From NCBI RefSeq assembly GCF_017873855.1, contig NZ_JAGGKR010000002.1, positions 186,001 to 250,000 on the forward strand: a stretch of DNA of 64,000 bases, written 5' to 3'. Below are positions 11,207 to 62,391 of this stretch, in pieces. The position numbers and the translations under genes were made by a program. The notes beneath the pieces were generated by a model, which was not told where the DNA came from, did not search any database, and saw only the letters and a program-made list of their open reading frames with translations. Source of the stretch: Methanolinea mesophila. GTDB lineage: Archaea > Halobacteriota > Methanomicrobia > Methanomicrobiales > Methanospirillaceae. Positions within the stretch are counted from its first letter, which is position 1. Each line of letters starts with the position of its first letter.

Positions 11207-11899
11207 ATGAGCAAGGTCTTTCCATCCTATTCCATGGAGGAAGAGACTCCTCACGGAGAGATCCACCCCTCGGGGCTTTCCAAGGCCCGGGTCGAAACCC
11301 TGACCGACGGGATATTCGCCATTGCGATGACCCTGCTTGTATTAAGCATCGAAGTCCCCCAGGCAGGAAGCCCCCCGCCGCTCCGGGACCTTCTCGCCTC
11401 GCTCTACCCTGACATTATCCTCTATGTGCTCGCGTTCCTGGCACTCGCGGTGTTCTGGGTGCTCCATCACCAGATGTTCCACTTTATCAGGTCCGTGGAC
11501 TCGTTCATGCTCTGGCTCAACGTGATCTGGCTCCTCTTCGTGGGCCTGATGCCGTTTACATCCAACCTTGCCGACACCTATTTCAGCGAGTGGTTGGCCG
11601 AGGTGATCTTCGGGGCGAACGTGCTGGTGATCGCGTTCATCGTGCTCGCAGAATGGCATCACGTGACCAGGAATCCCCGGATGATGGACCCGTCGGTCGA
11701 TAAGACCCTTGTAGGATTCGAGATGAAGCGGGGCGAGATGGTGACCGGGATCGCCTTCCTCGGAACGATACTTGCTGCGTTCGGCATATTTCCCGGGGTG
11801 GCAGTCTTCGCGCTGATCCCCGTTGTCTTTGCCCTGAGTCCCCAGACCCTGGACTATCTCTCCTCGAAGTCAAGGAAGATGATGCCGGGGAAACGGTGA
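11207..11899 (+). CDS. TMEM175-like potassium channel family protein (DUF1211)
   Basis: 230 aa with about six transmembrane helices. The first helix holds R-x-E-x-L-x-D-G-I-F-A-I-A-M-T-L-L-V-L, the signature of the DUF1211/TMEM175 family, in which that helix lines the K+ pore. Prokaryotic members are K+-selective leak channels. A second start at ATG 11234 is possible; neither has a strong ribosome site. It stands alone. Confidence 0.8.
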   Translation: MSKVFPSYSMEEETPHGEIHPSGLSKARVETLTDGIFAIAMTLLVLSIEVPQAGSPPPLRDLLASLYPDIILYVLAFLALAVFWVLHHQMFHFIRSVDSFMLWLNVIWLLFVGLMPFTSNLADTYFSEWLAEVIFGANVLVIAFIVLAEWHHVTRNPRMMDPSVDKTLVGFEMKRGEMVTGIAFLGTILAAFGIFPGVAVFALIPVVFALSPQTLDYLSSKSRKMMPGKR

Positions 11900-20452: not shown

Positions 20453-20646
20453 TGTAGTGTCATGTTTACGGGAGCGGATATTTTTTTCGTATCGGATTTG
20501 AGGATCGAATGCAGAAAAACTGAATACTCTCCATTATTTCTGATATCTCCTCCGTAATGGAGAGATTATTCCCCGGATCCGCCAGGCTCGGCCATTCGGG
20601 TAATAAACGATACCTATTTATCCGGTTGCTCGCGATTCTGAACGGT

Positions 20647-21087
20647 ATGAAAGCGATTGTGTATGCAGGAATTCTTATCCTCTTTGCAGCAGTGCTTATC
20701 TGCGGGTGCACTACGGTCCCGCAGGGTAACGCCGCTACGACTCCCGCGGTTACACCCGATCTCCTGGGGAACTGGTCCGGGACCTGGGTGGACTATACAA
20801 AAAGCGCGGGATATTCCGATGGGGCCGGGTATAGCATGGTTATGAGCGTTACGGGTCAGAAGGACCGGATTTTCTGGGGATCGTTCTATTTCACCGATCC
20901 TGAAGGCGCCACCGAGAGCGAGACGTTTGCAGGGGCGATCGGTCCCGACGGGAAAACAGTGTACATTGCCGAAGAGAATAACGGCTATACCTATGGTACC
21001 ATTACCGCACCTGACCAGATCGAACTGATTTATCTCCTGAGCGGCGAGAACTACAATGCCGCCATCGACACGCTGAAAAGGGGCTGA
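20647..21087 (+). CDS. Lipoprotein of unknown function
   Basis: 146 aa from ATG 20647. Signal sequence with a lipobox-like ICGC, lipid site C21, then a Thr/Pro linker and a soluble beta-rich domain starting LLGNWSGTWVDY. GNWSGTW is typical of small lipocalin-like or avidin-like barrels in lipoproteins, but the family is not certain. The frame runs upstream to 20557, but that part lacks a signal peptide; a TATA-like CTATTTATCC near 20611-20620 places the mRNA start just before 20647. Confidence 0.7.
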   Translation: MKAIVYAGILILFAAVLICGCTTVPQGNAATTPAVTPDLLGNWSGTWVDYTKSAGYSDGAGYSMVMSVTGQKDRIFWGSFYFTDPEGATESETFAGAIGPDGKTVYIAEENNGYTYGTITAPDQIELIYLLSGENYNAAIDTLKRG

Positions 21088-21683: not shown

Positions 21684-22048
21684 GGGACTATCTGTTCAGA
21701 AGATATGTTCTTCCGCCAGATAGCGACATCGCCGTCACGCTTGCAGGGAGTCAAAGAGCCGGACGACGAGATTTGCGGAGGTGGCGAAATGATTGTTTTC
21801 CTCCGTCACCGGATTCCTGGCCCCCGGTCCATGGTTATCATTTCACCATATGCAGATTCCGGATTTACACGGATCGGGGCGAGGAACGACAATCCCCGAG
21901 ACTGTACCCCCAGGCCCTCGTCCGGCCACCCGTGGTCTCCGGTAAGACCGATCCGACCTGGCATCACCTCCCGGTCCAGAAAGCGGGAACGTCCATATTT
22001 ATGAACGATCATCACGATATTCTGTTCATTCAAACGATCTGGTCATCC
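21684..22048. promoter_or_regulatory. Intergenic region with promoter of the cyclase gene
   Basis: 365 bp without a credible gene. A TATA box (CATATTTATG, about 21993-22002) lies 50 bp before ATG 22049, placing the mRNA start near 22025. This argues against the longer frame that reads upstream to 21773. Confidence 0.5.
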
Positions 22049-23551
22049 ATGAGCCGGGAAAGAACGCCAGCATCCGGGTTACGGCTGCTGCTCACCGCAC
22101 TATGCGTCATCCTTCTCGTACTGCCGGGTATCGTGCTCGCAGAGAACGTTACGAACACTACGCCAACCGGTGAAGTGACAACCGTTGCGACAACGGCCAT
22201 ACCTCCCCCGACCGAGACTCCCGCGGTATATCCCGACCCGCCGCCCTACCTCGTGCTCGGTGTTCCAGTCGTGGACAACCTTACCTGCACGATGTACGGG
22301 GTCGCGGCCCCGGGCTCCGGAAACGTGACCATCGAGAATATCCGGTGGGACTGGGGCGACAGCCAGACGCCGGAATACCACGGGTTCCCGTACTCGCACT
22401 TTTACTCCGGTGCCGGGGTATATACCCTCACGATCACCGCGCTCCAGTCCGACGGGCAGGAGACCGCGAGGAATGTCACGGTCACCATAGCGCAGCCTGT
22501 CGTCCCGGCAACCACCCCCGTCGCCACGGTCTCAGGTACGGCGACGGTCACCCCGACACAGACTACGGAGGGACCTGGTCCCGGGATCCCGGTGAGCCCG
22601 CCGGTCCTGACCCTCCTCGAGCCGGTGGTCGACGGGATGAACGTCACCGTGAACGGGAACCTTAACCCGGGTTCCCCGGGGACGGTCATCACGATAGTGA
22701 ACGTCGACTGGAATGACGGGAATACGACGACCTCTCCCGACCTCCCGGTGACCTACCGGTACTCCACCCCGGGGACCTACACCATCGCCATCACCGGGAC
22801 CCAGTCGGACGGGCTCTCGACCACCAAGAGGATCACCCTCGAGATCCGGAACCAGACGACCGGGTCGCCCGGGCCGACCCCCGGGTCCCCGCCGCCGACG
22901 GACCAGCCGATATTCGTGATAATCCTGGTCACCGCCATCGTGGTCGTCGTGGTCGGGGCGATCTTCCAGCAGATCCTGCACAGGAGAAGGGGACCGCCCG
23001 CAATGCCGGAGAACCACGGGGGGTTCACCCCGCGGACTGGGCCTCTCCCCAAGAACATCCCCTCTCTCGAGGTGCTGGAGACCCTGTGCACCGGGACCGA
23101 CGTATCGCCCGAGGTCCTCGACGCAGTCGTCCGGACGGCGGTGGAGATCTCCCGGGAAGGACGGGAGGGCAAGGCGGTGGGGACCTCGTTCGTGGTCGGC
23201 GACACCGGGAACGTGCTGGACCATTCACGACAGTTTGTCTTGAACCCGTTCCACGGCCACAACGAGGCCGAGCGCCGGATCACCGACGTGGGCATCAGGG
23301 GACATATCAAGGAGTTCGCCCAGCTCGACGGTGCGTTCATCGTCACCGGTTCCGGAGTGGTGGAGGCCGCCGGCCGGTATATCACCGTGGACGTGAGCCA
23401 GGTGAACCTTCCCGGCGGGCTGGGATCGCGTCATTCGTCGGTCGCGGGGATCACGCGGGTCACCAGGTCGATAGGGGTGGTCGTCTCCCAGAGCGGGGGG
23501 CTCATCACTCTCTTCCGGGACGGGAAGATCGTGTACACGATCAAGTCGTGA
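22049..23551 (+). CDS. PKD-domain membrane protein with cytosolic diadenylate cyclase (DAC/DisA_N) domain
   Basis: 500 aa from ATG 22049. Residues about 11-31 are a signal/anchor helix. Two PKD-like domains follow outside the cell (about 68-150 with RWDWGDSQ and AGVYTLTI; about 185-265 with VDWNDGN and PGTYTIAI), separated by Thr/Pro linkers with many N-x-T/S sequons. A second helix (about 285-308) ends in basic HRRRG. The C-terminal 125 residues match the archaeal DacZ/DisA_N domain: GTSFVVGD, VLNPFHGH, LDGAFIV (D427), EAAGRYI, GLGSRHSS (R461) and VVVSQSGG. This domain makes c-di-AMP from two ATP. The fusion suggests an extracellular sensor controlling c-di-AMP. RHS replaces the RHR of bacterial enzymes. 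Confidence 0.82.
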   Translation: MSRERTPASGLRLLLTALCVILLVLPGIVLAENVTNTTPTGEVTTVATTAIPPPTETPAVYPDPPPYLVLGVPVVDNLTCTMYGVAAPGSGNVTIENIRWDWGDSQTPEYHGFPYSHFYSGAGVYTLTITALQSDGQETARNVTVTIAQPVVPATTPVATVSGTATVTPTQTTEGPGPGIPVSPPVLTLLEPVVDGMNVTVNGNLNPGSPGTVITIVNVDWNDGNTTTSPDLPVTYRYSTPGTYTIAITGTQSDGLSTTKRITLEIRNQTTGSPGPTPGSPPPTDQPIFVIILVTAIVVVVVGAIFQQILHRRRGPPAMPENHGGFTPRTGPLPKNIPSLEVLETLCTGTDVSPEVLDAVVRTAVEISREGREGKAVGTSFVVGDTGNVLDHSRQFVLNPFHGHNEAERRITDVGIRGHIKEFAQLDGAFIVTGSGVVEAAGRYITVDVSQVNLPGGLGSRHSSVAGITRVTRSIGVVVSQSGGLITLFRDGKIVYTIKS

Positions 23552-61294: not shown

Positions 61295-62347
61295 TTATTC
61301 TCTCTTCAGGTGCACGTCCATCTGGGGGAACGGGACCTCGATTCCTTCCTCAGCGAACCGTTGCGCGATTCGAACATTGATCGCGTCCTGTACCTCCCAG
61401 GTGAGGGAGAAATCATTGGACCAGAGCACGAGCTGGAAGTTAAGGCTGGAAGCCCCGAACTCCAGGAAATATACCAGCGGTGCCGGGTCGGTGAGAATAT
61501 ACGGGATCTTCTCCGCCTGCTCGCGTGCGATCTCAAGCAGGATCTCCTTTACCCGGATCACATCGGTCCCGTATGCGACCCCGATGGGGATGCGGACCTT
61601 CATCTTCGAGTCGGGCTGGGCATAGTTGACCACGTAACTGTCCAGCATCTTCTTGTTGGGGACGATGACGATCTGGTTGTCGAGGGTCTTGATCCGGGTG
61701 CTCCGGGTCCCGACACAGGTCACGTCCCCGAAATACTCGTCGATCTTGACCCGGTCGTTCACCTTGAACGGCTTATCCATCGCGATGACCGCACCACCCA
61801 TGAAGTTGGCGAAGATATCCTGGGCGGCGAACGCGATCGCGAGGGTGATGATCCCGGCACCGGCGAGCAGGGGGGTGATGTCGATCTCGAGCACGCTCAG
61901 GATCAGCAGGAACACGATGAACCAGACGATGTATTTCGCGGCAATCTCCGCGAATGCCACCATCCGGTCGTCGATATCGCTCTCGGTCAGGGAGGTGAGG
62001 CGGTGCCCGTAGGCCACGAGGGCATTGTGGAGAAATGTGGCCACGATCCATCCGCCGAGTATGATCCAGACGACATTCAGGTACTTGCTGTCGAGCACGA
62101 ACTGCCATGACGGTGGCAGGTCCGCCACCTGGAGGGCAAAGTATACCGTGACCACGATTATCGCGATTACTACCGGGGTCCCGAACGCCGCCACTATGAT
62201 GTCGTCCAGGACATTCTCGGTCTCTTCGGCTTTTTTCCTCAGCCATCGGACGATGCCGTACACGATGAACGCGGTCACGAGGCCGACGATGAAGACCACC
62301 AGGGCGGCCAGGTCCCCGGAAAGGCCGAATACCGTAGTGGTTGCCAT
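61295..62347 (-). CDS. mscS: MscS mechanosensitive channel
   Basis: 350 aa from ATG 62347. Four to five helices, pore helix region ITLAIAFAAQDIFANFMGGAVIAMDKPFKVND, then the beta domain (VTCVGTRSTRIKTLDNQIVIVPNKKML) of MscS. Releases solutes during hypo-osmotic shock. The shared AT-rich region with hypD contains TATA-like boxes for both directions. The ATG at 62389 would place the promoter inside the gene. Confidence 0.9.
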   Translation of the reverse strand: MATTTVFGLSGDLAALVVFIVGLVTAFIVYGIVRWLRKKAEETENVLDDIIVAAFGTPVVIAIIVVTVYFALQVADLPPSWQFVLDSKYLNVVWIILGGWIVATFLHNALVAYGHRLTSLTESDIDDRMVAFAEIAAKYIVWFIVFLLILSVLEIDITPLLAGAGIITLAIAFAAQDIFANFMGGAVIAMDKPFKVNDRVKIDEYFGDVTCVGTRSTRIKTLDNQIVIVPNKKMLDSYVVNYAQPDSKMKVRIPIGVAYGTDVIRVKEILLEIAREQAEKIPYILTDPAPLVYFLEFGASSLNFQLVLWSNDFSLTWEVQDAINVRIAQRFAEEGIEVPFPQMDVHLKRE

Positions 62348-62391
62348 ATCACTATAATTATCATTGAACCGGGTTAATAATAACTTCATAA
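62348..62391. promoter_or_regulatory. Divergent mscS/hypD promoter
   Basis: 44 bp AT-rich: ATCACTATAATTATC and GTTAATAATAAC. It can give TATA boxes in each direction, with very short leaders for both genes. Confidence 0.5.

Follow-up and report, generated by a model that had tools for sequence, protein, structure and literature searches.

The window, a stretch of 64,000 nucleotides from Methanolinea mesophila (contig NZ_JAGGKR010000002.1), carries at 22049-23551 on the forward strand an open reading frame with an ATG start, which encodes 500 amino acids plus a stop. It combines two PKD domains, a transmembrane (TM) helix and a diadenylate cyclase (DAC) domain in one chain, a layout called PKD-DAC below. 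The start codon is backed by orthologues with the same starting point (MRQER, MHQER and similar), and the in-frame ATG at 22001 would add merely 16 residues. Pfam finds the DAC domain at residues 369-493 (PF02457, 2.1e-15, 56.8 bits against a cut-off of 27) and two stretches of PKD_4 (1.8e-13, 50.7 bits against a cut-off of 27; PKD families PF00801 and PF18911).

Domain layout and membrane topology

All parts of the gene lie on the forward strand. The protein opens with a Sec-type signal peptide (residues 1-31, 22049-22141), seen as a hydrophobic helix at residues 8-29 in the predicted structure and aligned in the orthologues, with a cleavage site, placed by eye, between PGIVLA and ENVT. A weakly conserved Thr/Pro-rich linker follows (residues 32-64, 22142-22240; 27% mean pairwise identity, pLDDT below 50). 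PKD domain 1 (residues 65-150, 22241-22498) and PKD domain 2 (residues 183-268, 22595-22852) were each placed by Pfam, AlphaFold2 and Foldseek, and the linker between them (residues 151-182, 22499-22594) by the AlphaFold2 model and the comparison of identities. The TM helix (residues 288-313, 22910-22987), recognized by its charge pattern and in the model, is followed by HRRR and, as delimited in the alignment, by a juxtamembrane segment (residues 314-345, 22988-23083). The DAC domain, placed by the same three methods as the PKD domains, takes up the rest (residues 346-500, 23084-23548), with its DGA motif (D427-A429, 23327-23335) within LDGAFIV and its RHS motif (R461-S463, 23429-23437), the counterpart of bacterial RHR, within GLGSRHSS.

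The AlphaFold2 model was built on 20 orthologues. It has a leading hydrophobic helix, beta-sandwich domains at about 65-150 and 183-268, the TM helix at 288-313 and a DAC fold at 340-498. Mean pLDDT is 73.9, mostly 80-94 in the folded domains and low in the linkers, and with a pTM of 0.39 for the whole protein the model does not fix how the domains are placed relative to one another. For the PKD parts, the Foldseek matches were the PKD domains 6aem and 4l9d (TMt 0.85-0.87); for the DAC part they were, at probability 1.00, DisA with c-di-AMP (9y9y), MsDisA (7y0d), CdaA (6hvm) and DacA (6gyy). The first-pass annotation of this DNA had read the same order from the letters (signal or anchor helix, two PKD domains, a further helix, then a DAC core with the two motifs), and Pfam, AlphaFold2 and Foldseek bear it out. 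On the three points where that annotation saw its reading as vulnerable, the DAC match is present, the topology puts the DAC inside, and DGA and RH are kept in the homologues.

The topology was read from charges and from N-glycosylation sequons. In all 20 aligned orthologues, the 20 residues flanking the TM helix hold 0-2 lysines and arginines before it and 2-6 after it. The ectodomain of the window protein has 8 sequons against 3.0 expected in composition-preserving shuffles (0.002 of shuffles reach as many) and the cytosolic part has none, which agrees with the many sequons first remarked in the PKD part. The excess recurs in the protein's own subgroup, with a shuffle fraction below 0.05 in 14 of 15 relatives and of 0.066 in the remaining one (L061); L075 also has an excess. 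It is absent from the other subgroup, the one of Methanosphaerula palustris (L071, L072, L074, L076). Charge pattern and sequon distribution together place the PKD pair outside and the DAC domain inside, and the PKD pair is probably N-glycosylated.

Distribution, companion cyclases and neighbouring genes

So unusual an architecture could by itself raise the suspicion that a faulty gene model or assembly has joined two unrelated genes. The same architecture was found in 25 of the 108 genomes of the window's family, spread over 9 of 17 genera (E up to 1e-60), in independent assemblies and with colinear full-length alignment; these orthologues rule out a chimera, and we give that explanation practically no weight. 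A scan of named assemblies found the architecture in some 25 assemblies of Methanoregulaceae, Methanospirillaceae or unplaced Methanomicrobiales. In the DAC tree the PKD-DACs form one group, though support for it is modest (83/95 when a very long row is included, 89 without that row), so a single origin of the fusion is likely. Across 15 close orthologues, mean pairwise identity is 77% in the DAC domain, 68% in PKD domain 2, the better conserved of the pair, and 57% in PKD domain 1, against 27-38% in the linkers and stalk, so both PKD domains are under selection. Two copies look damaged: one is split into two frames (L067), and in another the match crosses one in-frame TGA (G153:C64:4710-5186); these look like occasional loss of the gene.

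Some relatives carry a helical hairpin, inserted in the juxtamembrane segment between the TM helix and the DAC domain, which is missing from the window protein and its close relatives. Its sequence matches in the PDB are mostly designed helical proteins. A comparison of the hairpin with the MIT-like domain found in Methanoperedens DACs gave a probability of only 23.5%, so an MIT identity is not claimed.

The first-pass annotation had suggested a search for a second DAC gene in the genome, and two were found. One encodes a REC-PAS-PAS-DAC (P0002, at C1:829709-830215, L052). The other (P0003, at C1:716525-716872, L053) is an extremely divergent DAC, with a branch length of 3.85, the motif GGARHIF and no significant Pfam match in its N-terminal half. 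At least two DACs are present in 24 of 26 PKD-DAC carriers, the two exceptions being genomes 77-80% complete, and in 12 of the 12 well-assembled carriers checked. The PKD-DAC is thus an extra input, not the housekeeping synthase.

Those companion cyclases bear on the main rival to a sensing role, in which the PKD pair does no more than tether a constitutively active DAC, at the S-layer or at some membrane site, and nothing outside the cell governs how much c-di-AMP is made. PKD domains frequently serve as spacers or adhesion modules, and with 87 PKD_4 matches in the genome a PKD ectodomain does not by itself imply sensing. The long flexible linkers are unfavourable to tight signal transfer, and the search beside the gene found no conserved partner. 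A simple tether fits poorly, however, with a cyclase that is nearly always additional to another DAC, and sister DACs have REC and PAS, which are known input modules, in the corresponding position, as expected of regulated enzymes. We regard the tether as unlikely, though as the most serious of the alternatives.

No conserved operon with osmotic genes was found, and the neighbours of the PKD-DAC differ between genomes. The TMEM175 and MscS homologues noted earlier in the window do lie there, at 11207-11899 (about 10 kb from the gene) and 61295-62389 (about 38 kb away), and are, as had been said, unlinked to it. In three relatives (L035:9811-11352, L056, L060) the PKD-DAC has a PPK2 polyphosphate kinase gene 88-169 bp upstream of it, and in four more such a gene is found nearby. 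An ArsR-like HTH plus V4R regulator lies downstream, at about 110 bp in L045, L072 and L076 and at 1.2 kb in L071. These neighbours are local, not universal. In the window, a small lipoprotein gene without a Pfam match is found upstream (20557-21087); in two close orthologues (L034, L055), relatives of this gene directly follow the PKD-DAC. An Rfam scan of the window returned only a tRNA. Candidate c-di-AMP outputs encoded elsewhere in the genome include TrkA_C/RCK proteins, TrkH, and KefB-like and Kch-like proteins, where names beyond Pfam come from reading the sequences.

Catalytic core and the modular DAC clade

D427, G428, A429, R461, H462, S464 and S480 are invariant in the 26 PKD-DACs. 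Two positions depart from the bacterial pattern: the PKD-DACs have S or A for the third R of RHR, and the glutamate which follows S480 in CdaA and most DacZ proteins is Q in the window protein. These changes, and the near-constant presence of another DAC in the same genome, would fit a degenerate domain which has lost c-di-AMP synthesis and serves either to read a bound nucleotide or to dominate another DAC as its partner. That reading seems improbable to us, as DGA and RH do not vary across the 26 proteins, many family genomes have a DAC of this RHxS type as their only one, and the two deviating positions also vary in other archaeal DACs. The DacZ-type DACs of other archaea have RHV, RHM, RHL, RHI or RHA, and three have SQSGG; the haloarchaea-like DacZ proteins, recognized by their acidic composition, have GARHM. 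DacZ of H. volcanii is a proven Mn-dependent DAC (PMC6741144), the RHM motif being taken here from the haloarchaea-like proteins and not from its own sequence. Since the position is not R in a class with proven activity, the third R looks dispensable in archaea, and neither the S or A there nor the Q after S480 looks disabling.

The family also offers genomes with one cyclase. Of 34 sampled, 17 have a single DAC, none of DacZ length (the one in G081 is cut by a contig end), and the ones read at sequence level are PAS-DACs of the window DAC's clade or, in G047, a TPR-TM-DAC. This clade is therefore the only DAC source in about half of the sampled family genomes. An RCK_N-DHH-DHHA1 protein, which by its GdpP-like domains would be a c-di-AMP phosphodiesterase, is kept in 21 of 21 genomes tested, among them 16 of the 17 with a single DAC. 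As judged from sequence, the window DAC is likely to be enzymatically active.

In the DAC tree, the window domain belongs to a clade of modular archaeal DACs apart from DacZ (100/100), whose fusion partners are PKD, REC-PAS-PAS, TPR-TM, MIT-like, AAA/Vps4_C and TrkH. The PKD-DAC is thus no lone oddity: it belongs, as a single branch, to a family of modular DACs in Methanomicrobiales and Methanoperedens. The REC-PAS-PAS-DAC of the same genome shares the clade and the motif G(S/T)RHxS and is 52% identical to the window DAC, but its input domains are cytosolic where those of the window protein are extracellular. PAS-DACs of this clade appear to stand in place of DacZ as the sole diadenylate cyclase in many family genomes. 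A census of archaeal response regulators (PMC5847659) does not mention DAC or DisA outputs.

A sister family fuses TrkH to a C-terminal DAC (L048:2178-4253; L049:368-2566, complement; L044:1456-3599). In the first two, TrkH and DAC both score far above the Pfam cut-offs (e.g. TrkH 3e-45, DAC 8.5e-18), and the third was recognized by similarity only. Such a protein is a potassium transporter which bears its own c-di-AMP synthase, and these fusions are direct evidence for a link to K+ in the clade. Another receptor-like layout is predicted to have TPR repeats outside the cell, joined through one TM helix to a DAC in the cytosol (L041:3017-4312, L042:3984-5333, L114:2765-4501), with TPR confirmed by Pfam in L041 and L114. 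In Candidatus Methanoperedens and its relatives, some DACs are joined to an AAA ATPase that has Vps4_C, and other, short ones begin with an MIT-like domain (1.2e-6, slightly below the cut-off) (L119:16-1908, L120:2687-4483, L082:1105-1872); ESCRT-type modules meeting c-di-AMP were unexpected. Among 148 genomes sampled from the phylum, DAC open frames longer than about 420 amino acids occurred only inside the window's order. This, with the Methanoperedens fusions, suggests that the diversification of DACs has its centre in Methanomicrobiales and that Methanoperedens holds a second set.

Proposed mechanism and known diadenylate cyclases

Altogether, the window protein is best read as a single-pass receptor cyclase, active as a dimer, which reports the state of the envelope to the c-di-AMP/K+ network, and we consider this reading probable, with some reserve. 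The signal peptide would bring the two PKD domains out into the S-layer space, with the TM helix leading to the cytosolic DAC. A DAC yields c-di-AMP only when two domains stand face to face, each with one ATP. The PKD pair would sense the cell surface or envelope: contact with a surface protein, or envelope strain, may act through the TM helix to change how the dimer is arranged, so that more or less c-di-AMP is made at the membrane. K+ transport and osmotic proteins, for which the genome has TrkA, TrkH and Kch-like genes, would read the nucleotide, and the RCK_N-DHH-DHHA1 protein would remove it. Of this scheme, we infer the catalysis, the signal and the direction of regulation.

To our knowledge, it is not known what sets c-di-AMP levels in archaea. 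The PKD-DAC has the look of a surface sensor coupled straight to a second messenger, and the gene is present in many related methanogens. The characterized haloarchaeal DacZ has no membrane or extracellular part, whereas the PKD-DAC has an explicit extracellular domain. With such a DAC, which has an ectodomain and occurs in a range of methanogen genera on top of another DAC, the control of archaeal c-di-AMP becomes testable, and the sister TrkH-DAC fusions point to potassium transport as an output.

The DAC core had first been taken for a DacZ core, and a phylogeny against DacZ had been proposed; the tree was made, and separates the two as clades (100/100). The window protein has no match to DacZ_A, which a DacZ of the same order matches at 1.5e-26, and it scores 118.2 bits against the NF041371 cut-off of 430, a cut-off which the order's own DacZ (L139, 99.2) also misses. 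Membership in DacZ was rejected on these grounds. DacZ and DacY/CdaZ have in common with the window protein a DAC domain with DG and RH motifs, but they are soluble and have a DacZ_A or PK_C-like N-domain in place of its signal peptide and TM helix.

The architecture, first thought to be new, was probably already catalogued. Among the five archaeal DAC classes of Corrigan and Gruendling 2013, as relayed by Braun et al. 2019 (PMC6741144), DacV is listed apart from DacZ, with B8GHP5 of M. palustris as its sole representative. The M. palustris genome (G069) has only two DACs, one of PKD-PKD-TM-hairpin-DAC layout (L046) and one of DacZ type (L142), so DacV is most likely the PKD-DAC architecture, as judged from that genome and not from the B8GHP5 sequence. 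The M. palustris protein has the helical hairpin between TM helix and DAC; the window protein and its close relatives do not. A literature search found no functional study of DacV and nothing relevant on PKD-type diadenylate cyclases. The novelty is lowered by the probable DacV entry and widened by the modular clade around it.

CdaA (DacA) of Firmicutes is a membrane-anchored cytosolic DAC with an extracytoplasmic regulator, CdaR. The window protein does not belong to it, having one TM helix besides the signal peptide and 25 bits against the TIGR00159 cut-off of 188.8. CdaA has three TM helices and a separate YbbR-domain regulator, while the window protein unites one TM helix after a signal peptide and PKD domains in one chain. 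By analogy, it would work like CdaA and its extracellular CdaR merged into one chain. A bolder and more tentative proposal is that this is the first transmembrane receptor diadenylate cyclase, in which contact or strain at a glycosylated PKD pair controls c-di-AMP in a methanogen, and that its clade has diversified inputs (PKD, REC-PAS, TPR, MIT-like, AAA/Vps4_C, TrkH) much as bacterial GGDEF proteins have for c-di-GMP. The modular clade suggests that archaeal c-di-AMP signalling may have been assembled mix-and-match, in the manner of bacterial c-di-GMP signalling.
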